DNA of 64,000 nucleotides from Sorangium cellulosum. GTDB taxonomy: Bacteria; Myxococcota_A; Polyangia; Polyangiales; Polyangiaceae. Of this stretch, positions 52,491 to 62,971 are shown one piece after another (position 1 is the first letter of the stretch; each line of letters begins with the position of its first letter). Location of the stretch: assembly GCF_002950945.1 (NCBI RefSeq), contig NZ_CP012673.1, forward strand, positions 2,232,001-2,296,000, read 5' to 3'. A program made the position numbers and the translations under genes. The notes below the pieces were generated by a model. It ran no database searches and was not told where the DNA came from. It saw only the letters and a program-made list of their open reading frames with translations.

Positions 52491-53114
52491 TCACCGCAGC
52501 GCCGCGCGCAGCGCGCGGACCGCCTGGCTCTGCGTCGGCTGATCGAGGAAGCCGGCGAGCCAGGCGGGGTCGAGATCGGGGAGAAAGGCGCTGCGGGCGC
52601 GCGGCTCGTAGCGCTCGTTCGCGAGCGCGAAGACGCGGAGGCCCTCGTCGCGATCCCACACCCAGACCTCGGCGACGCCGAGGCCGCGGTAGATCTCGAG
52701 CTTGTCGAGCCCGCCATGGGTCCAGACGACCTCGATGGCGAGGTCCGGAACCGCCTTGTTCGTGTCGCCGACGATGTAACATTCGTCGGGCTCGGCCCCG
52801 CGCGCCTTCAGCTCATTCCGGAGCGTCCACGCGCCGTAGCCGCTGAGCTCGATTCCCCGCTCATCGCAGTACGCCTCGAGGAGGCGCGCGATGGTCTTCT
52901 TGATCCCTTCGTGATCGCGAGATGGGCTCATCAGCTCGATCGCTCCGTTCAGGTAGTACATGCGCACACCGGCCCGGTCTCCCCGCACAGCGAGGAGGAT
53001 CTCGTAGTCCTTCCACGTCATCCCGTAGAGAACGATATGCTGGTCGTTCTCCTCGTGATGGAGCCGCGGTCGCTTGGCCGCGGGGACGACGGATGTCGGG
53101 ATGATGGACGCCAT
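52491..53114 (-). CDS. Uma2-family endonuclease-like protein (DUF820)
   Basis: Predicted 207-residue cytoplasmic protein with a PD-(D/E)xK-type fold of the Uma2 family. Typical blocks are MTWKDYEILLAVRGDRAG, YYLNGAIELMSPSRDHE, the active-site line VPDLAIEVVWTHGGLDKLEI (Asp, Glu and distal Lys) and YRGLGVAEVWVWDRD. Members are very common in myxobacteria and cyanobacteria and often stand alone. No target is known. It converges on the outer-membrane protein gene; the start has only a weak ribosome site. Confidence 0.88.
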   Translation of the reverse strand: MASIIPTSVVPAAKRPRLHHEENDQHIVLYGMTWKDYEILLAVRGDRAGVRMYYLNGAIELMSPSRDHEGIKKTIARLLEAYCDERGIELSGYGAWTLRNELKARGAEPDECYIVGDTNKAVPDLAIEVVWTHGGLDKLEIYRGLGVAEVWVWDRDEGLRVFALANERYEPRARSAFLPDLDPAWLAGFLDQPTQSQAVRALRAALR

Positions 53115-53342: not shown

Positions 53343-55844
53343 TTACGAGGGGTCCGCGCTGTCGACGGCAGGCTGAAGGACAGCGGGCGTCCGGTACCTC
53401 GCCACCACGATCGTGACATCATCGTCCGGACTCGGACAGAAGGCCTCGACCTCGCGGAGGATCTGGTCGCGGATGGCCTCGGCAGGCGCGTCCTGGGCGG
53501 CCTCGATGATCGAGCAGAGCCGCGACAGCCCGAACGGCTCCTCGCGCGCGTCTCGCGCTCCCGTCACCCCGTCGCTGTAGAGCACGAGGACGTCTCCGTC
53601 CTCCAGGACGAGCTCCTCGTCGCGCGTCACGGTGTCGATGGCGGGCACGGCGCCGACCCGCACGCCGGAGCTCGGGATGCGCTCGCAGCGCCGCGTCCGC
53701 GCGCGGCACACGAGGATGTCCTCGTGCGCTCCCGCGTACGTTACGCGACCGCTCCGCTCGTACCGGAGCAAGAGGAGCGTCGCGTGCTGGTCGCGCCTCA
53801 GGCGGTTCTGGATGTTCTCGTGCACCGCGGCGTTCAGCGTCGAGAGGATCTCTCGCGGGCTCGCGGCCGGCTCGCCCTGCGTCAACGCCGAGACCATGCT
53901 GTGGATCATCAGCATGATGAGGCCCGCCGCGAGGCCGTGCCCGGCCACGTCGCCGATCGCGAGCCACCCGCCCTCGCTCGTCGCGAACACGTCGTAGTAA
54001 TCGCCGCCGACCTCGGGCGCAGGGTTCATGATCGCGCCGAGCTCGAGCCCCTCGATCTGCGAGAGCGCGGGCGCCAGCGTGGTCTGGATGTGCGACGCGA
54101 CCTGGAGCTCCCGGCGCACCGCTTCCTGCTCCAGCCGTTCCCGCAGCTCCACCTGACAGACGATCTCCCGGTGCAGCGCCGCGGTCTTCATCGCAGAGCC
54201 GATCTGGACGCGCACCGCGTCGCACACGGCCTCGTCCGGCCCGTCACCGAGCACCAGAATGCCATAGTGCTCGGCGCCGCCGAACGTGATGGGCATGACG
54301 ATGACGCTGCCTCGCTCGCTCGACCTCAAGAACCCCGGCGGCGCGAGGAGCCGCGCCGGGAAGCTCTCCGGAGGCGGAGAGAGCTCGCGGCCGTTCTCCA
54401 TCAGAAAGAACGGCTTCAAGGTGGCGCGGCGGGCGTCCTCGTAGAGCGACAGCGACGCGCGCGTGAAATACAGCCTGTCGAGCTCCGAGGCGAGCGTGCG
54501 CTTGAGGAGAGGCAGGCTCAGGCACGTCGTGAGCCACCTCCCGGTCCAGCTGAGATCGTTCGCCGCGAGCTCCACGCTCAGGCGCTGTCGCCCCTCGGCG
54601 CGCACGGACGCACGCCCGATGAGGAGGCGCGCCGCGTGCCAGAGCTGCTCGAGGGACTTGCTCGATCGCGCGCCGCCTGGCCTCCAGCCGTGCCGGGCGC
54701 GCAGCAGCGTGATCACGAGCTGAAACTGGTCGAGGAAGCAGCGCTCATCGCCGGCTCGGTCGAGCAGGTGCTTCAGCGCGCCGAGGAAGCGGCCCTCGCG
54801 CCCCGCGAGCTCCTCGTCGAGCGCCGACAGCAGCTCTTCAGGCCAGCCCCGGAGGACGGCCGCCGGCATGCTCACCGCCTGATCGAGCGCGCGCGCGAGC
54901 TCCTGCCGCTCCTCGGCGCCCGAGGGCGATCCGTCGCGCGCCGGCGCCTCCGCGCGCGCGCTCCTCGGGATGACCTGACGCGCGCAGCCGCACGACTCGC
55001 GACGGATGAGCTCGAGCGGCTGCGCGTCGCGCAGCGGCACCGCCTCGCCGTCGAGCCTGCGCAGGACGGTCTCGACGGCGAGCGCCGCGAGGCGCTCGAT
55101 GGGCTGGCGGATGCTGGTCAACGACGGCTTCGTGTAGCGCGCGACGTCGACGTCGCCGAAGCCGCAGACGAGGACGTCCCGCGGGACCTCGACGCCGTGC
55201 GCCTTGAGCACGTCGATCGCCCCGAGCGCCATGTCGTCGTTGGCGGCGACCACGGCGTCGAGCTCGACCCCTCGGCCCATGAGCTCGCGCATCGCGACAC
55301 AGCCGCTCTCGATCGTGAGCTCGCCGATCGCGACGAGGCGCTCATCGTACGGGATCGCGTGCGCCTCGAGAGTCCGCCGGTACACGTCGGCGCGCAGCTT
55401 CGCCTCGGTGTGGGTCGTCCGTCCGCCGATGTACGCGACGCGCCTGCACCCGTGCTCGCCGACCAGGTGCCCGACCGCGAGCTCGATCGCGCGGCCGTCG
55501 TCGATGACGATGCTGGGGATCCCGGCGAGCGCGACGCCGATGCTGCATACCGGCAGCGGCGCGAATGTCCGGCAGAAATCGACCAGGCTCTCCACGCCGG
55601 TGTGGTTGCCGAGCGTCGCCGAGGCGACCACGACGCCGTCGGCCACATCCGCTCCGATGAGGCCAGCTATCGAGTTCTGGGCCTTCGTGCCCGTGTCGGG
55701 GCCGCCGAGCTCCTCCCCGAGCGCGATCACGAGATCGACGCCGTGCACCTCGGCGGCGCGCTCGACCCCGAACCGCAGCTCGGACTGGTGCTCGCCGCGC
55801 ACGTAGTCCATCACGAGGGCGATCGTCCGGCGCTTCACGGTCAT
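53343..55844 (-). CDS. LacI-type sensor fused to SpoIIE/PP2C phosphatase (downstream copy)
   Basis: Predicted 833-residue soluble protein. The ATG at 55844 overlaps the stop of the upstream paralogue (ATGA), with GGAGG immediately before it. Residues 1-290 form a LacI/PurR-type periplasmic-binding-like domain without any helix-turn-helix: TIALVMDYVRGEHQSELRFG, GCRRVAYIGGR, VVAANDDMALGAIDVLKAHG and SLTSIRQPIERLAALAVE. It ends in RRESCGC, the tail seen in LacI-sensor signalling proteins. A helical and GAF-like middle and a coiled coil (ELRERLEQEAVRRELQVASH) lead to the SpoIIE domain with VGGDYYDV (about residue 612), GDVAGHGLAAG, LYSDGV and DDDVTIVV. All metal-binding Asp are kept. Probable role: sugar-controlled Ser/Thr dephosphorylation of an anti-sigma antagonist-type partner. 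Confidence 0.88.
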   Translation of the reverse strand: MTVKRRTIALVMDYVRGEHQSELRFGVERAAEVHGVDLVIALGEELGGPDTGTKAQNSIAGLIGADVADGVVVASATLGNHTGVESLVDFCRTFAPLPVCSIGVALAGIPSIVIDDGRAIELAVGHLVGEHGCRRVAYIGGRTTHTEAKLRADVYRRTLEAHAIPYDERLVAIGELTIESGCVAMRELMGRGVELDAVVAANDDMALGAIDVLKAHGVEVPRDVLVCGFGDVDVARYTKPSLTSIRQPIERLAALAVETVLRRLDGEAVPLRDAQPLELIRRESCGCARQVIPRSARAEAPARDGSPSGAEERQELARALDQAVSMPAAVLRGWPEELLSALDEELAGREGRFLGALKHLLDRAGDERCFLDQFQLVITLLRARHGWRPGGARSSKSLEQLWHAARLLIGRASVRAEGRQRLSVELAANDLSWTGRWLTTCLSLPLLKRTLASELDRLYFTRASLSLYEDARRATLKPFFLMENGRELSPPPESFPARLLAPPGFLRSSERGSVIVMPITFGGAEHYGILVLGDGPDEAVCDAVRVQIGSAMKTAALHREIVCQVELRERLEQEAVRRELQVASHIQTTLAPALSQIEGLELGAIMNPAPEVGGDYYDVFATSEGGWLAIGDVAGHGLAAGLIMLMIHSMVSALTQGEPAASPREILSTLNAAVHENIQNRLRRDQHATLLLLRYERSGRVTYAGAHEDILVCRARTRRCERIPSSGVRVGAVPAIDTVTRDEELVLEDGDVLVLYSDGVTGARDAREEPFGLSRLCSIIEAAQDAPAEAIRDQILREVEAFCPSPDDDVTIVVARYRTPAVLQPAVDSADPS

Positions 55845-58318
55845 CCTCCGGGGGCCCGGTACCTCGCCACCACGATCGTGATGTCGTCGTCCGGGCTCGG
55901 ACACCAGCCCTCGACCTCGCGCAGGATGCCGTCGCGGATGGACTCGGGCGACGCCGGCTGGACAGCCTCGATCACCGAGCAGAGCCGCTCCAGCCCGAAC
56001 TGCTCCCGGTGCGCGTTGCGCGCCTCCGTGACTCCATCGCTGTAGAGCACGAGGAGGTCGCCGTCCTCCAGCATCAGCTCAGCGTCGCGCGTGATCGCCC
56101 GGATGTCGGGCAAGACGCCGACCCACACGCCGGAGCTCGGGACGCGCTCGCAGCGCCGCGTCCGCGCGCGGCACACGAGGACGTCCTCGTGCGCTCCCGC
56201 GTACGTCACGCGCCCGCTCCGCTCGTACCGGAGCAAGAGGAGCGTCGCGTGCTCGTCGCGCTTCAGCCGGTCGCGGACGCTGTGGTACACGGCGCTGTTG
56301 AGCGTCGAGACGATCCGACTCGGGCTCTCCGTCGGCATCCTTCGCGTGAGCGCCGCGCTCATGCTCTGGATCATCAGCATGACGAGGCCGGCGGCGAGGC
56401 CGTGCCCGGCGACGTCGCCGATGCCGAGCCATCCGCCCTCGCTCGTCGCGAGCACGTCGTAGTAGTCGCCGCCGACCATGGCTGCCGGCTTCGTGAGGGC
56501 GCTGAGATCGAGCCCGTCGAGGCGCAGGCGCGCGGGCGCCAGCGTGGTCTGGATGCGCGCCGCGACGCGGCTCTCCTCGCCGGCCTTCTCCTGCTCCAGC
56601 CGCTCGCGCAGCTCCACCTGCCGGACGAGCTCGCGGTGCAGCGCAGCGGCCTCCGCCGCGGAGCCGAGCTGGAGGAGCAGCGTGTCGTAGATCAGCGCGT
56701 TCGCTCCGCTGTCGAGCACTGCGACGCCGAATTTCTCCGCCTCGCCGAACGCGACCGGGAGCGCGATCATGACGCTGCGCTCCCCGGAGAACAGGAACCC
56801 GGGAGGCGCGAGGAGGCGCGCCGAGAAGCTCGACGAAGGCGGATCCGCTGCGCGCCCGTCCTCCATCACGAAGACGGGCTTCAGGGTGGTGCACTCGGGG
56901 TCTTGATAGAGCGACACCGCGACGCGCGAGAATCGCAGCTTGGGAAGCTGCGACGCGAGCACCTCCCGGAGGACAGGCAAGCTCAGGCAGGTCGAGAAGG
57001 CCCTCCCTGTAGAGCGGAGAAACAACGAGGCGAGCTCCAGGCTGAGCCGCTTTTCCCCTTCGGCGCGGACGGACGCGCTGCCGATCGCGCAGCGAGACGT
57101 ATGCCAGATGCGCTCGAGCGCCTCGTTCAGCGCCTCGTTGCCCTCGCCCTCGAGCGCGCTGCCGAGCCGCTCGCGCAGCAGCGTGATCACGCTCTGGAAG
57201 TCCTCCAGGCTCGCGCCCTCGCGCTTCGCCTTGTCGAGCAGATCCTCGAGCTCGCGCAGGAACCGCCCCTCTTGCCCGGCGAGCTCCTCTTCGAGCCCGG
57301 AGAGCAGCGCCGCGGGCCAGCCGACGAGCGAGCTGGTCGGTATCGACAGGGTCTCTTGCATGACGCGCTCCAGGCTCTCCCGCCGCGAGGCGAGGGCGAG
57401 GGGCTCGCCGTGCGTCGGCGCGGCCGAGGGGCGGGGAGCCGCGGCCGGCTCGGGCGCGCAGCCGCACGACTCGCGTCGCTTCAGCTCGACCGGCAAGAGG
57501 CGCCGCGCGGGGACGGCCTCGCCGCGCATCATGCGCAGGATCGTCTCGACGGCGAGCGCCCCGAGCCGCTTCACGGGCTGGCGGACGGTCGTGAGCGACG
57601 GGCTCGTGAAGCGCGCGACGGACACGTCGTCGAAGCCGCACGCGAGGACGTCCCGCGGGACGTCGATGCCATGCGCCTTGAGCTCCTCGATAGCCCCGAG
57701 CGTCATGTTGTCGTTGGCGCCGACCACGGCGTCGAAGTCGACCCCGCGCTCCAGGATCTCGCGCATCGCGGCGCGGCCGCTCTCGACCGTGAACATCCCG
57801 TACGAGAAGAGGCGCTCGTCAAAGGGGATCGAGCGCTGCGCGAGCACCCTCCTGTACGCGTCGGCCCGCTCCTTCGCCTCATCGTTGTTCGCCGGGCCGC
57901 TGATGTACACGATCCGCCGGCGTCCGTGGGCGTCGGCCACATGCCCGACGGACATCTCGGCCCCGCGGGCGTTGTCGACGAGGAGGCTGGGCGTGCCGTC
58001 GACCTCCACGCCGATGCTGCAGACCGGCAGCGGCGCGTAAGAGCGGCAGAAAGCCCTCATGCCCTCGACACCTACGTAGTGGCAGAGGGTCGTGGAACAG
58101 ACGACGATTCCATCGACCGTGTCGGCTCCCACGAGATAGTAAACGCTGTTTACGGCCGTCGCGGCGGAGCCCTGGGGGGCGAGCGTGTCGCCGAGGACGA
58201 CGAGGAGATCGGCGCCGTGCGCCTCGGCTGCGCGCTCGACCCCGAACCGCAGCTCGGCCTGGTACTCGCTGCGCAAATAGTCTATCAGGAGGGCGATCGC
58301 CGGGCGCTTCTTCGTCAT
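55841..58318 (-). CDS. LacI-type sensor fused to SpoIIE/PP2C phosphatase (upstream copy)
   Basis: Predicted 825-residue paralogue of the next gene, with the same order: HTH-less LacI-type sensor (PAIALLIDYLRSEYQAELRF, VVGANDNMTLGAIEELKAHG, SLTTVRQPVKRLGALAVE, RRESCGC), helical/GAF-like middle, coiled coil (RQVELRERLEQEKAGEE), and SpoIIE phosphatase with VGGDYYDV (about residue 615), GDVAGHGLAAG, LYSDGV and DDDITIVV. GGAGG lies 8 nt before the ATG at 58318. The two copies are nearly identical in the phosphatase part but differ more in the pocket region of the sensor, so they may respond to different ligands. The start of the second gene overlaps this stop, so both are made together. No partner kinase or anti-sigma antagonist is seen within the window. 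Confidence 0.88.
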   Translation of the reverse strand: MTKKRPAIALLIDYLRSEYQAELRFGVERAAEAHGADLLVVLGDTLAPQGSAATAVNSVYYLVGADTVDGIVVCSTTLCHYVGVEGMRAFCRSYAPLPVCSIGVEVDGTPSLLVDNARGAEMSVGHVADAHGRRRIVYISGPANNDEAKERADAYRRVLAQRSIPFDERLFSYGMFTVESGRAAMREILERGVDFDAVVGANDNMTLGAIEELKAHGIDVPRDVLACGFDDVSVARFTSPSLTTVRQPVKRLGALAVETILRMMRGEAVPARRLLPVELKRRESCGCAPEPAAAPRPSAAPTHGEPLALASRRESLERVMQETLSIPTSSLVGWPAALLSGLEEELAGQEGRFLRELEDLLDKAKREGASLEDFQSVITLLRERLGSALEGEGNEALNEALERIWHTSRCAIGSASVRAEGEKRLSLELASLFLRSTGRAFSTCLSLPVLREVLASQLPKLRFSRVAVSLYQDPECTTLKPVFVMEDGRAADPPSSSFSARLLAPPGFLFSGERSVMIALPVAFGEAEKFGVAVLDSGANALIYDTLLLQLGSAAEAAALHRELVRQVELRERLEQEKAGEESRVAARIQTTLAPARLRLDGLDLSALTKPAAMVGGDYYDVLATSEGGWLGIGDVAGHGLAAGLVMLMIQSMSAALTRRMPTESPSRIVSTLNSAVYHSVRDRLKRDEHATLLLLRYERSGRVTYAGAHEDVLVCRARTRRCERVPSSGVWVGVLPDIRAITRDAELMLEDGDLLVLYSDGVTEARNAHREQFGLERLCSVIEAVQPASPESIRDGILREVEGWCPSPDDDITIVVARYRAPGG

Positions 58319-58452
58319 GGCTGCCGCCTCCGATCACGCGCGTCGTCGATACGAGCTCAAGCCGGGGGATTGTACGTCGATCTTGATGGGCCTCCAACCC
58401 CTTCGCCCGCGACCGCGTTGCGGAGGTGGACCGACAGGCGTCGCGCTCTACG

Positions 58453-58488
58453 TACATGGGTTACATGGGTTACATGGGTTACATGGGG
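58453..58488. repeat. 9-bp tandem repeat TACATGGGT, four copies
   Basis: Four perfect or near-perfect units lie between the SpoIIE pair and the 3' end of the propeller-cytochrome gene. The unit is a multiple of three, but no gene is supported across it. Confidence 0.85.
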
Positions 58489-58587
58489 CTTGACCATCAC
58501 TCGATGGTGCCTGTCACGGCATCGGACGAGGCGCTGGCCACGGCCCGCGCCCCCGTCCCCCTGCGGGGCGCGGCGAGCGCCTCCCGC

Positions 58588-61329
58588 TCATTCGTCGCCG
58601 TCGCGGATGCCGTCCTCGTCGCGGTCGATCCCGATCCGCGCGCCGCTGCCGGGCGGGACGCTGGTGAACGTCATCTCGTGATGAGGGAGCTGCGCGAAGA
58701 ACAGCAGGGTCGACTTCGTGGCGGCGCCGAGGGCCTGTCGGTCCGCGATGAACTGGCCCGATCCGACGTAGAGGAACCCGATCTCGTGGCTCCCGACGCG
58801 CGCCTTCGCGACGACGTCGCACTCGCCCTCGTCGGCCCGCTCGAGGAAGAGATCGAGGCGCGGGGTCGCCGCCGCGAGGTTGTGCTGCGTCACCGTGACC
58901 TGCTGCCCGACGATGGGCGCCAGGTTGCTCTCGAACGCCATGATGTACTGCTCGACCTGCCGCCGCCGCTGGTCGCCGTTCCCGCCGGGGCTGTCGTCGA
59001 AGCCGCCCGGGCTGAAGACGCTGTCGAAGCCCATCACGCTCATGAAGCGGAAGATGGTGTCCATGGCCCCGTCGTTGAGGAACCCGAAGCCGCGCACCTG
59101 GTCCCCCATGAAGTCGTTGTCTCCCGGATAGATGAACGGAGTCGGGACCATGCCGAACATGCCGACCTTCTGGTACAGGTTGCGGAGGTGCGGGGTCTTC
59201 ATGACCTGAGGCACCTCGTTGCGGACGTACCGGCCGTCGGTGCCGAAGAAGCCGGGCAGCGGCTCGCCGAGCTGGGCGTTCGCGTCGGGGTCGATCGTGT
59301 GGCATCCCGCGCACGATCCGCTGAGATCCGTGCCGTCCGCGAAGAAGTGGTCTCGGCCGGCTTGCTGATCCGGCGTGAGCGAGCTGTCGAGGTTCCGGAT
59401 CGGGTTCGGCGGGTACATGATCTTGAGGGCGAAATCCGCGAAAGCCTCCATGTCGGCGGCCGGGATGGGCCCGCTCCGGCCGAGCAATCCGACGAACCCG
59501 GCCTGGAACTGCCTGAACGCCTCCCGCTCGTCGAAGGTGCCCTCGTCCGGCTGCGCGCTGGGCTCGTTGTAGCCGCCGGTGCGGTCGCCGCGCCAGTGCA
59601 TCGGTCCGTGGTTCGCCATGCCGCGGAGGCTCTGGGTGGTCATCGGCCCCTTGAGGGCCATGAAGTCGTTCATCGGCGGCGAGAACAGCATGAGATCCTC
59701 GGCGACGGGCCCGGGGTTCGGGACCGTCGTGATGTCGGGGTTGCCGAGATCCCAGGCCAGGCTGTCGAAATCTCCGAAGACGTGGCAGCTCGCGCACGAC
59801 GCCTCGCCGTTGCTCGAGCTGAACCGGGCGTCATAGAGGAAGGGGCGGCCGGCGACGATGCTCGGCGGCTCTGGGGTATACATCGGGACGCGCGCGGTCA
59901 CGGCCCGCGTCGTCGTGCTCACCACCGCGATGGAGTTGTCGAACCGCGTGAGCGCGTAGAGCCGCCCTCTCTCCTCGTCGAGCACGAGGCCCGTGGGGCC
60001 GACCGGCTCGCCGCCGTCGTCGAGGACGATGTGGCTCGCTGCGCTCGGAGAGAAGGTGTCGTTCTCCAGCTGGGCCGTGCTGAACACGCCGATCTTGCTG
60101 GACCCGAGCGCGGCGACGTACAGCGTCGCCCCGTCGCTCGTGATCGCCATGCCGAGGGGCAGCGCGAGGCTCTTGTCGTTCTCCGCGCTCGGGATCGGCG
60201 CGCAGCAGGCGCTGTAGTCGATGTGCTTGTTCAGGTGCCGCGGCGCGGCGCTGCCCTGGTCCAGCACGGTGATCCGGCTCTCGTGGAGATGTCCTCGCGC
60301 GCTCGACCCGGTGAAGATCCCCGGCCCCTCGAAGCGATCGAGGTTCATCGCCTCGGTGTTGGTCACGTAGACGCGGCCGCTCGCGGGGTTGACGATCATG
60401 TTGTAGAGGATCGTCCCGACGCCCGTGTAGAAGCCGGCCGCGCCGGGCAGCTGCGCCGGCGGGTTGCTCGTCGCGTCGATGACGAACACGTCCTTGTCGG
60501 GGAGAGCGTAATTCACGTACGGATCCCACGTCTGTCCGACGCTGTCGACCCAGCTCGTCCCGTCGAACTTCACGATCAGCGCGGTCGCCGGCTGCGTCGT
60601 CCCGAGATGGTCGGTGAACGGCGGCGGCGGCCCGCCGCCGAGGGCGACGATGTCCCGATGCAGGGCGGTGGTCCGATTGCCGCTGTGGAAGCCGGCCGCG
60701 TAGACGCGCGTCCCGTCCGGGCTCACCGCGAGCGCGCGCGGCGTGTCGGTGAACAGCGGGAGGATCGTGAGGGGGACGCCGCCGAGCGAGCTCGCCCCGA
60801 GGTTCGCCGCGTCGTAGACCCAGACGTCGGCGCGGCCCACGCCGGGCGTCGAGAGCTGGGGATCGTACGGGGCGTTCTGCCCCCGGTGCGCCGTCGTGAT
60901 GAAGGCGCGGCTCCGCGACGGCCCGCCGAACACGATGTCCCGCGGCTCGTCCCCGACGAGCAGGGTGCGCACGACGCGCGGAGAGGAGGGAGAAGAGACG
61001 TCGACGACGCTGACGCTGTCCGAGAGGTGATTGACGACCCAGACGTCGCCGCTGCCCGAAACGGAGACAGCGACAGGCTCGAGCCCGACCGTGATGGAGC
61101 TCCGATGCACGAGCCCGGATGGCATGACGCGGAACACCTCGAGGCGGTTGTCGGGGGTGTTGACCGCGTAGAGGTGCAGCCCGTCATCGGAGAGCGCCAG
61201 AGGACGAGCCTGCCCGCTCTCGAAGAGCGCGTAAGAGGCGGCTCGCGCTGGGGTGGTCGCGACGACGGATGACAAGGAGAGCGAAGCGATGATCATCGGC
61301 GACGCCAGGCGCCGAGAGTTGGATATCAT
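58588..61329 (-). CDS. Beta-propeller di-haem cytochrome, secreted
   Basis: Predicted 913-residue exported protein. The ATG at 61329 is 5 nt after AGGTG and gives a signal peptide cleaved near TPARA. Residues about 35-490 form a YVTN/Lactonase-type propeller (ARPLALSDDGLHLYAVNTPD, DVWVVNHLSDSVSVVDVSS, RALAVSPDGTRVYAAGF, RLYALTRFDNSIAVVSTTT). Two haem motifs follow, CASCH (about 511) and CAGCH (about 671), in a MauG/cytochrome-peroxidase-like arrangement (PMTTQSLRGMANHGPMHWRG, TPHLRNLYQKVGMFG). The C-terminus is a calcium-binding-type IGIDRDEDGIRDGDE. Probable role: surface oxidation or peroxidase-like electron transfer; the substrate is unknown. Confidence 0.85.
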   Translation of the reverse strand: MISNSRRLASPMIIASLSLSSVVATTPARAASYALFESGQARPLALSDDGLHLYAVNTPDNRLEVFRVMPSGLVHRSSITVGLEPVAVSVSGSGDVWVVNHLSDSVSVVDVSSPSSPRVVRTLLVGDEPRDIVFGGPSRSRAFITTAHRGQNAPYDPQLSTPGVGRADVWVYDAANLGASSLGGVPLTILPLFTDTPRALAVSPDGTRVYAAGFHSGNRTTALHRDIVALGGGPPPPFTDHLGTTQPATALIVKFDGTSWVDSVGQTWDPYVNYALPDKDVFVIDATSNPPAQLPGAAGFYTGVGTILYNMIVNPASGRVYVTNTEAMNLDRFEGPGIFTGSSARGHLHESRITVLDQGSAAPRHLNKHIDYSACCAPIPSAENDKSLALPLGMAITSDGATLYVAALGSSKIGVFSTAQLENDTFSPSAASHIVLDDGGEPVGPTGLVLDEERGRLYALTRFDNSIAVVSTTTRAVTARVPMYTPEPPSIVAGRPFLYDARFSSSNGEASCASCHVFGDFDSLAWDLGNPDITTVPNPGPVAEDLMLFSPPMNDFMALKGPMTTQSLRGMANHGPMHWRGDRTGGYNEPSAQPDEGTFDEREAFRQFQAGFVGLLGRSGPIPAADMEAFADFALKIMYPPNPIRNLDSSLTPDQQAGRDHFFADGTDLSGSCAGCHTIDPDANAQLGEPLPGFFGTDGRYVRNEVPQVMKTPHLRNLYQKVGMFGMVPTPFIYPGDNDFMGDQVRGFGFLNDGAMDTIFRFMSVMGFDSVFSPGGFDDSPGGNGDQRRRQVEQYIMAFESNLAPIVGQQVTVTQHNLAAATPRLDLFLERADEGECDVVAKARVGSHEIGFLYVGSGQFIADRQALGAATKSTLLFFAQLPHHEMTFTSVPPGSGARIGIDRDEDGIRDGDE

Positions 61330-61735
61330 TGAGCACCTGCCAAGTATCTGGAGCGCCGGGATGGATGCAGCGCGCCAAACATAGAATCGCAAATACGTCC
61401 ACGCGAGTCAAGCGCCTCGAGCGCCGAACGAGGGCGCGCTGCGGGCGTGCCGCCCGACATCGCTTGACGCGCTCGGGCTGCGTAGCGCGCGGGCCCGGAA
61501 GCCACCCCTTGTCAACTCGCGGTTGACACCCCTGGTTAACACACGCGGTGCACGCGCTCGGGTCACGCCGCGGATCATCGGACCGATCGCGGATGGATCG
61601 CCGCTTGCTACACCTCCGGTCATGAAACGATCCGTGGGTCCCATCTCGCCCGTGCGCGATGTCGCGAGGACAGTCCGCGCAAAGCCGTTCTGACCCCTCG
61701 AGGATCGATCCGTCTGGCGAGCAGAAGGAGAATCG
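61330..61735. other. Divergent intergenic region with an inverted repeat
   Basis: No gene is supported in these 406 bp between the minus-strand propeller-cytochrome and the plus-strand epimerase. It holds the inverted repeat at 61510-61528 and an AGAAGGAG ribosome site 5 nt before the epimerase start. Confidence 0.5.
61510..61528. promoter_or_regulatory. 19-bp inverted repeat, candidate operator
   Basis: TGTCAAC-TCGCG-GTTGACA has perfect 7-nt arms. Its right arm contains TTGACA (61523-61528), a -35-like hexamer reading toward the aldose 1-epimerase gene, so a bound regulator would cover the promoter. It is not the TGTGANCGNTCACA element of the pentose island. Confidence 0.5.
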
Positions 61736-62971
61736 ATGCGAGCAGGTGCATGGATTGTGGCGGGCAACGCCGCGCTCTGCGGCTGCGGAGCGGGCGAGGA
61801 GCCGCCCTCGCGCGAGTTTTCGGCGTCGTACTTCGAGATCTCCAGCGAGGATTTCCTGGGGGTGATCGACGGCAAAGCCGTGGATCTGTACACGATCGAG
61901 AGCTCGCAGGGCGCATTCGCGAAGATCACGAACCTGGGCGCCAAGATCCAGCAGCTCGTGGTCGCCGACAGGGACGGCCGGTTCGGCGACGTCGTGCTCG
62001 GTTACTCGAGCCTCGGCGCGGTCACGACCGGGCAGGCGTCGATGGGGGCCTTCATCGGGCGTTACGCCAACCGCATCGCTGGAGGCACCATCACGGTGGA
62101 CGGCGCCGAGTACACCGGCGGCTCGTTCAGCCTCGAGGGTGAGACCTTCACCCTCCCCGCCAACGACGGCGCGCGGCCCAACACCTCGCACGGCGGCCCG
62201 CTCGGCTCGCGCTTCCGCGTCTTCGACGCGGTTCAGCTCTCGAGGTCCAGCGTGAAGATGTCGCTCACGTTCGCCGACAGCGAGGATGCAGCGCCGGGCT
62301 TCACGGGCTTCCCTGGCACCGTCTCCCTCGAGGTCGTGTACACGCTGACAGAGCAGAACCAGCTGAGCGTCCGCTACCGCGCGACCGCCCTCGACAGGTC
62401 GACCGTCGTCAACTTCACCAGCCACCCGTTCTTCAACCTGAGCAACTCCCCGGGCAGCCCGGTCGCGGATCACGTACTCACCATCCACGCCGAGCAGTTC
62501 CTCGAGCTGAACGAGCTGCTCGTCCCCACGGGTGTCCTGCGCGACGTCGACGGCACGCCGATGGACTTCCGCTCGGGCAAGCCTGTCGGCGCCGACATCG
62601 GCGATGTCAGCTACGACATGCTGGCGCGGATCGACCCAGCGAAGGGCGGTTACGACCACACGTTCGCGGTCCTGCAGCCCACGCCGGGCGCCCTGACGCG
62701 GCATGCGACGGTCGTCGAGCCGGAGTCCGGGCGGGTGCTGGAGGTGTGGTCGACCGAGCCAGGGCTGCACCTCTTCACCGCCAACGGCCTGAACGGCGAG
62801 GCGCCGCGCGACGTGGGCAAGGGCAACGTCGCGTATCCGAGCCGCTCTGCGCTCTGCTTGGAGCCGATGCACTTCCCCGACTCGCCGAACCAACCGAGCT
62901 TTCCTTCGACGGAGCTCGCCGCCGGAGCGACGACCGAGGGCGAGATCGTCTTTGCGTTCTCCACGCGGTGA
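61736..62971 (+). CDS. Exported aldose 1-epimerase (mutarotase)
   Basis: Predicted 411-residue enzyme interconverting alpha- and beta-anomers of aldoses. The ATG at 61736 has AGAAGGAG 5 nt upstream. A short signal with Cys at residues 15 and 17 (LCGCG) suggests a lipoprotein or secreted form, unlike cytoplasmic GalM. Family residues are GAFIGRYANRIAGG, NTSHGG (His), TSHPFFNLS (catalytic His), GGYDHTF (Asp) and CLEPMHFPDSPNQPSFPST (catalytic Glu). All are present, so it should be active, probably outside the inner membrane, supplying the anomer taken up by sugar transporters. Not adjacent to the pentose operon, although it could assist it. Confidence 0.85.
   Translation: MRAGAWIVAGNAALCGCGAGEEPPSREFSASYFEISSEDFLGVIDGKAVDLYTIESSQGAFAKITNLGAKIQQLVVADRDGRFGDVVLGYSSLGAVTTGQASMGAFIGRYANRIAGGTITVDGAEYTGGSFSLEGETFTLPANDGARPNTSHGGPLGSRFRVFDAVQLSRSSVKMSLTFADSEDAAPGFTGFPGTVSLEVVYTLTEQNQLSVRYRATALDRSTVVNFTSHPFFNLSNSPGSPVADHVLTIHAEQFLELNELLVPTGVLRDVDGTPMDFRSGKPVGADIGDVSYDMLARIDPAKGGYDHTFAVLQPTPGALTRHATVVEPESGRVLEVWSTEPGLHLFTANGLNGEAPRDVGKGNVAYPSRSALCLEPMHFPDSPNQPSFPSTELAAGATTEGEIVFAFSTR

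Follow-up and report, generated by a model that had tools for sequence, protein, structure and literature searches.

Tandem LacI-SpoIIE genes in Sorangium cellulosum

The window, i.e., the whole stretch of 64,000 nucleotides analysed here, is part of a Sorangium cellulosum genome that consists of a single contig of 14.56 Mb. It carries two adjacent genes of the same architecture on the reverse strand. Gene B (window positions 55841-58318) is the first of the pair and encodes a protein of 825 amino acids with a LacI-type ligand domain, a helical and GAF-like middle region, a coiled coil, and a SpoIIE phosphatase domain. Gene A (53343-55844) is the second and encodes 833 amino acids as counted from the ATG at 55844. 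The stop codon of B and the start codon of A overlap in an ATGA junction (55841-55844, reverse strand), and GGAGG directly precedes the ATG of A, which is why we placed the start of A at this position. A longer version of A starting at GTG 55904 was rejected, as it lacks such a ribosome-binding site. A scan for sigma-70 promoters and terminators gave no match.

The surroundings of the pair were also inspected. Directly downstream of A lies a gene for an Uma2-type putative endonuclease (52494-53114). Upstream of the pair, positions 58591-61392 encode a secreted beta-propeller/cytochrome c protein with lactonase and MauG-like matches, relatives of which also flank the LacI-SpoIIE loci L025, L104, and L106. 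A perfect 9-bp tandem repeat (TACATGGGT, 3.9 copies) is located between this gene and B at 58453-58487. An aldose 1-epimerase gene (61736-62968; PF01263, E 2.5e-69) is found ~3.4 kb from the pair, which may be coincidence.

Both proteins are matched by the Pfam profiles of the LacI ligand domain (PF13377/PF00532, E-values of 1e-14 to 1e-31) and of SpoIIE (PF07228, E-values of ~1e-39, above cut-off). The ligand domain comprises residues 7-281 of B (PF00532; 57476-58300, reverse strand) and residues 22-285 of A (54990-55781, reverse strand). The HTH headpiece of LacI has no Pfam match in either protein, which places A and B outside the LacI/GalR transcription factors, and the reading frame of B opens only five codons before its ATG and therefore leaves no room for a headpiece. 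The AlphaFold model of B has a LacI-family fold, with 9nt4 as the best structural match in Foldseek (E 3.7e-18, TM ~0.8 on the target). The phosphatase domains, of SpoIIE/PPM type, comprise residues 630-820 of B (55859-56431, reverse strand) and 627-817 of A (53394-53966, reverse strand). All six PPM metal-binding aspartates, namely D618, D621, D635, D761, D811, and D812 (B numbering), are kept in A and B. By sequence, the closest phosphatase of solved structure is 6k4e, which we take to be SiaA. Profile and structure matches thus agree on a LacI-family N-terminal domain and bear out what a first-pass annotation had read from the nucleotide sequence, i.e., a LacI-type ligand domain without DNA-binding head on a SpoIIE phosphatase with every metal-binding aspartate kept, encoded by two genes joined at ATGA.

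The middle of B (residues 288-596; 56531-57457, reverse strand) is modelled as helices (309-386), a long helix (395-461), a GAF-like part, and a coiled coil (541-592), of which the GAF-like part and linker are modelled poorly (pLDDT 35-60). This middle region has no sequence match in Pfam or the PDB, and a scan of viral contigs with it gave none either. A tblastn search of plasmids yielded, among the matches listed, matches to the phosphatase domain alone, and none that covers 80% of the protein.

Relations among the eight paralogues

The S. cellulosum genome encodes eight LacI-SpoIIE proteins: A and B of the window, C, D, and E at single loci (2.48, 3.51, and 3.96 Mb), and F, G, and H in a tandem array at 8.75 Mb. 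Between A and B, the sensors are 59% identical, the middle regions 51%, and the phosphatase domains 72%, while the respective means over all 28 paralogue pairs are 62%, 59%, and 75%. Because these means rank the sensor below the phosphatase, the faster change of the sensor relative to the catalytic domain is a family-wide feature and not specific to the pair. The earlier observation that the sensor halves diverge more is thus correct for A and B but does not set them apart. The phosphatase halves had moreover been described as almost the same, and at 72% identity this applies merely to a tract of ~40 codons. In this tract (codons ~689-728 of B at 56135-56254 and their counterpart in A at 53670-53789, both reverse strand) A and B share 96% of their nucleotides, compared with 84-86% shared with any other paralogue, a pattern probably left by short local gene conversion. 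Outside the tract, A is mostly nearer to F, and B nearer to H or others, than A is to B. In the tree, A joins the clade of F (support 91/90) and B is positioned at the base of another clade (support 89/98), with branches of 0.47 and 0.54 for the window pair as compared to a median end branch of 0.16. A recent tandem duplication was therefore dismissed as the origin of the pair, as A and B are not sisters in the tree and share no more than the short conversion tract.

Ligand pocket

We mapped 16 LacI pocket positions by hand, following LacI residue numbering. Identity among the eight paralogues amounts to 83% at these positions and to 60% in the remainder of the domain (P 0.0005, random column sets), and the counterparts of LacI R197, N246, and Q291 are invariant. 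The sole clear outlier is A, with Y19H, F176L, and D230G (B numbering). The pocket partly consists of residues that are constant in most LacI-type proteins, and its conservation is for this reason moderate evidence. As it extends across eight paralogues, most copies probably bind one ligand class, and the three substitutions in A point to a probably altered ligand response. This does not support the model of two ligands feeding one output that had been put forward for the pair.

From the homology of the fold we infer a carbohydrate as the ligand. Sugar binders rank highest among the matches (the LacI ancestor with D-fucose, RbsR, and CelR). In the ranking by sequence, the cellobiose regulator CelR (5ysz) comes second, with a match over residues 103-284 that may serve as a hint to the ligand. 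Sorangium is known for cellulose degradation. CcpA and PurR also occur among the structural and sequence matches, and the LacI-type domain could, like these two, bind a protein or a purine-like effector and not a sugar. We consider such an effector unlikely in view of the sugar binders that head the matches; the invariance of the R197, N246, and Q291 counterparts adds a weak argument in the same direction, since much of the superfamily shares them.

STAS and kinase genes next to LacI-SpoIIE genes

Neighbourhood clustering revealed two small genes, for proteins of ~125 and ~174 amino acids, that recur directly upstream of genes of the LacI-SpoIIE family. The ~125-amino-acid protein is modelled (pLDDT 91.5) with a STAS fold like that of SpoIIAA, RsbV, and SiaC, and its sequence matches the slr1659 superfamily with an E-value of 6e-10, which is below the cut-off. 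It has an invariant NSSCLK motif (Asn-Ser-Ser in 12 of 12) that, judged by motif, presumably occupies the position of the phosphorylated Ser/Thr in SpoIIAA, RsbV, and SiaC. By sequence, Asn-Ser-Ser on a STAS fold thus provides the phosphorylatable residue of a partner-switch protein. The ~174-amino-acid protein has weak matches to the slr1658 superfamily, HATPase_c_2, and DUF6272, and keeps the N-box E-x3-N and the G-box SGLGLAR of a kinase-like protein. Both proteins score 25-39 bits against a cut-off of 100 (NF047703, NF047705) and, being below these NCBIfam cut-offs, are no more than remote relatives of slr1658 and slr1659.

Each of the five STAS genes of the S. cellulosum genome immediately precedes a LacI-SpoIIE gene, namely D, E, F, G, or H. 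The genome has three intact kinase genes, located ahead of D, G, and H; array gene F is preceded by a kinase remnant with a stop codon (L026:9503-9706). In the third array module of other Sorangium, the kinase gene is also broken or missing (L100, L101, and L103). Immediately after the tandem array comes a gene for pyruvate kinase, in this and related genomes (L026:4946-6445 and L101:14880-16472), possibly by coincidence. Five further Sorangium genomes contain 20 more STAS genes. Over the six genomes, 24 of 25 STAS genes precede a LacI-SpoIIE gene, usually by ~20 bp; one of them is cut by a contig end. The search for STAS partners that the first-pass annotation had advised was thus productive, with a small STAS gene ahead of 24 of the 30 LacI-SpoIIE genes and usually a kinase gene before it. 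The six genes without STAS comprise A, B, and C, two genes of strain So ceGT47, and one gene of a MAG. As the phosphatase gene of most relatives comes third in a kinase/STAS/phosphatase operon, we see the phosphatase as one part of a three-part switch and abandon the initial idea of a one-protein switch.

Two other Polyangiaceae sequences, L086 and L110, which may come from the same or closely related organisms, encode the complete kinase-STAS-phosphatase operon. This makes it probable that the operon is ancestral and was lost at the window pair. In other myxobacteria, a like STAS/kinase pair adjoins HAMP-type membrane SpoIIE phosphatases, which suggests that the sensor was swapped on an existing module. 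The co-occurrence of phosphatase, STAS protein, and GHKL kinase is a feature of the family and not of the window locus: neither STAS nor kinase genes, even as traces, were detected around A and B, including the gap upstream of B (58319-58590, reverse strand).

Given that STAS genes do not always accompany SpoIIE-type enzymes, the phosphatases could instead oppose eukaryotic-like Ser/Thr kinases, of which Sorangium has more than 300 (PMC2887360). The direct operonic association of most relatives with genes for STAS-fold proteins and GHKL kinases renders this role quite improbable, and STAS proteins are the targets of those SpoIIE-type PPM enzymes that have known substrates (PMC11418112).

The window pair itself might be drifting, as it lacks adjacent partners, has long branches, and has no orthologue in the five other Sorangium genomes. 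Together with the D230G change in the pocket of A, this could mean that A and B, as copies in decay or private to one lineage, currently play no part in signalling and that the operon copies alone work. We regard this as a minority view, because both frames are intact with a GC3 of 0.92, the catalytic aspartates are kept, and the genes are ATGA-coupled with good ribosome-binding sites. A naive dN/dS of ~0.5-0.8 for A and B also resembles that of the operon copies, a value that we do not trust since dS is unreliable at such extreme GC3.

LacI-STAS proteins

Six LacI-type proteins of the S. cellulosum genome, encoded at 1.28, 2.52, 2.53, 9.42, 9.44, and 12.56 Mb (L033, L029, L030, L031, L032, and L034), end in an RsbR-like STAS domain. 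Their LacI domain and middle region, which is homologous to the middle of B, form a module common to LacI-STAS and LacI-SpoIIE proteins (profile E 5e-41). The gene at 12.56 Mb faces a convergently oriented receiver-HATPase_c_2 gene, the best such match in the genome. Beyond the S. cellulosum genome, one partial LacI-STAS match was found among 116 genomes sampled from the order. The common module and the STAS end make these proteins conceivable substrates of the LacI-SpoIIE phosphatases. However, six of six have Ala or Val at the position of the acceptor Ser/Thr (GVP.VDA/DV), and none is encoded at the LacI-SpoIIE loci examined. We discarded them as substrates because of the missing acceptor residue and assign this role a very low probability; a function as scaffolds or competitors is possible.

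Distribution and earlier report of the architecture

LacI-SpoIIE genes are present in all six Sorangium genomes compared, with 3-8 copies each. Full-length relatives outside Sorangium are rare among 116 genomes sampled from the order and likewise among 379 genomes of the phylum. In other Polyangiaceae, the LacI and middle module occurs with a histidine kinase-receiver or with no output, as assigned from sequence motifs and not by Pfam. Headless LacI and middle modules of ~580-650 amino acids with no visible output domain were seen in L092, L093, L094, L095, L097, and L098 from this family.

In 2010, Treuner-Lange described eight SpoIIE proteins of S. cellulosum that form a clade and mostly contain a periplasmic binding domain, and ascribed the expansion of this Sorangium clade to duplication (PMC2887360). 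The window pair, in which SpoIIE is likewise joined to a domain of periplasmic-binding type, corresponds to this clade in architecture and genus, and there are eight proteins there and eight here, a comparison of counts alone. The architecture had been called little described by the first-pass annotation; little studied it is, but the combination itself was already reported for S. cellulosum. The part of the 2010 report available to us makes no link to an adjacent STAS/kinase operon, to pocket conservation, or to LacI-STAS counterparts (PMC2887360), and no description of the three-gene operon context was found in the literature searched. While the architecture has been known since 2010, the operon context appears to be new.

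Comparison with known partner switches

A PPM phosphatase, a GHKL kinase, and a SiaC-type STAS protein are likewise encoded in one operon in the SiaABCD system of Pseudomonas aeruginosa, and the SiaABC switch, in which a single STAS-type protein is the target of both phosphatase and kinase, responds to the availability of carbon (PMC7647112). The sensor of the Sorangium proteins is LacI-type and cytoplasmic, whereas that of Sia is HAMP-type and in the membrane, and no diguanylate cyclase was seen in the Sorangium operon. The SiaA model NF038263 gives 41 bits against a curated cut-off of 700, so the proteins are not SiaA equivalogs. In the SiaC motif, a Thr follows the Asn where the Sorangium STAS proteins have a Ser. 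This Asn takes the place of an Asp in Bacillus. The RsbU-RsbV-RsbW and SpoIIE-SpoIIAA-SpoIIAB systems of Bacillus share with Sorangium the three activities (predicted here), the SpoIIAA/RsbV fold, and the coiled-coil control, but differ in the sensor, and no sigma factor gene was noticed in the Sorangium operon. In RsbU, a coiled-coil linker carries the signal to the phosphatase dimer, and such linkers were proposed to make sensors exchangeable among phosphatases, kinases, and cyclases (PMC12143880). Cyanobacterial Slr1658 and Slr1659 are remote relatives, below family cut-offs, of the Sorangium kinase-like and STAS-like proteins. HmpUVW of Nostoc, also a phosphatase/STAS/kinase switch, is likened here by description and not by sequence, and its targets are not comparable. 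The LacI-type sensors on other outputs have the LacI and middle module in common with the Sorangium pair, the output of which is a PPM phosphatase.

Proposed mechanism

On balance, we favour the proposal that A and B are ligand-gated phosphatases of the kinase-STAS-phosphatase partner-switch family that act in trans on STAS proteins of sister loci. They would represent cytoplasmic PPM phosphatases from a family expanded in Sorangium, the ancestral form of which would be the third gene of an operon, after an RsbW/Slr1658-like kinase and a STAS-fold phospho-switch protein. Briefly, a sugar or similar small molecule might close the LacI-type cleft, and the movement would be relayed via the long helix, the GAF-like part, and the coiled coil to the phosphatase dimer. 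This dimer would then dephosphorylate the STAS protein at the Ser of NSSCLK, and the dephosphorylated STAS protein would swap its partner, either kinase or effector, and thereby switch the downstream response. We infer the STAS protein as substrate from the operon of the sister loci. Having lost its own kinase and STAS genes, the window pair would most likely act in trans on the STAS proteins of these loci and feed a further signal into the same switch. An integrated network, in which up to eight LacI-type phosphatases, part of them with a kinase and STAS gene of their own and the rest orphaned like the window pair, converge on a shared STAS pool and the six non-phosphorylatable LacI-STAS proteins are sugar-responsive scaffolds or competitors, is more speculative, and we would put it at roughly one chance in four.

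The domain architecture noted in 2010 is hereby extended to a module of three proteins that can be tested and for which both a substrate and a phospho-site are predicted. As a natural LacI-type sensor on a PPM phosphatase, the pair offers a test case for coiled-coil sensor exchange among phosphatases, histidine kinases, and cyclases. If true, the proposed mechanism would mean that a bacterium that degrades cellulose and forms fruiting bodies directly couples the sensing of sugars inside the cell to switches based on serine phosphorylation.
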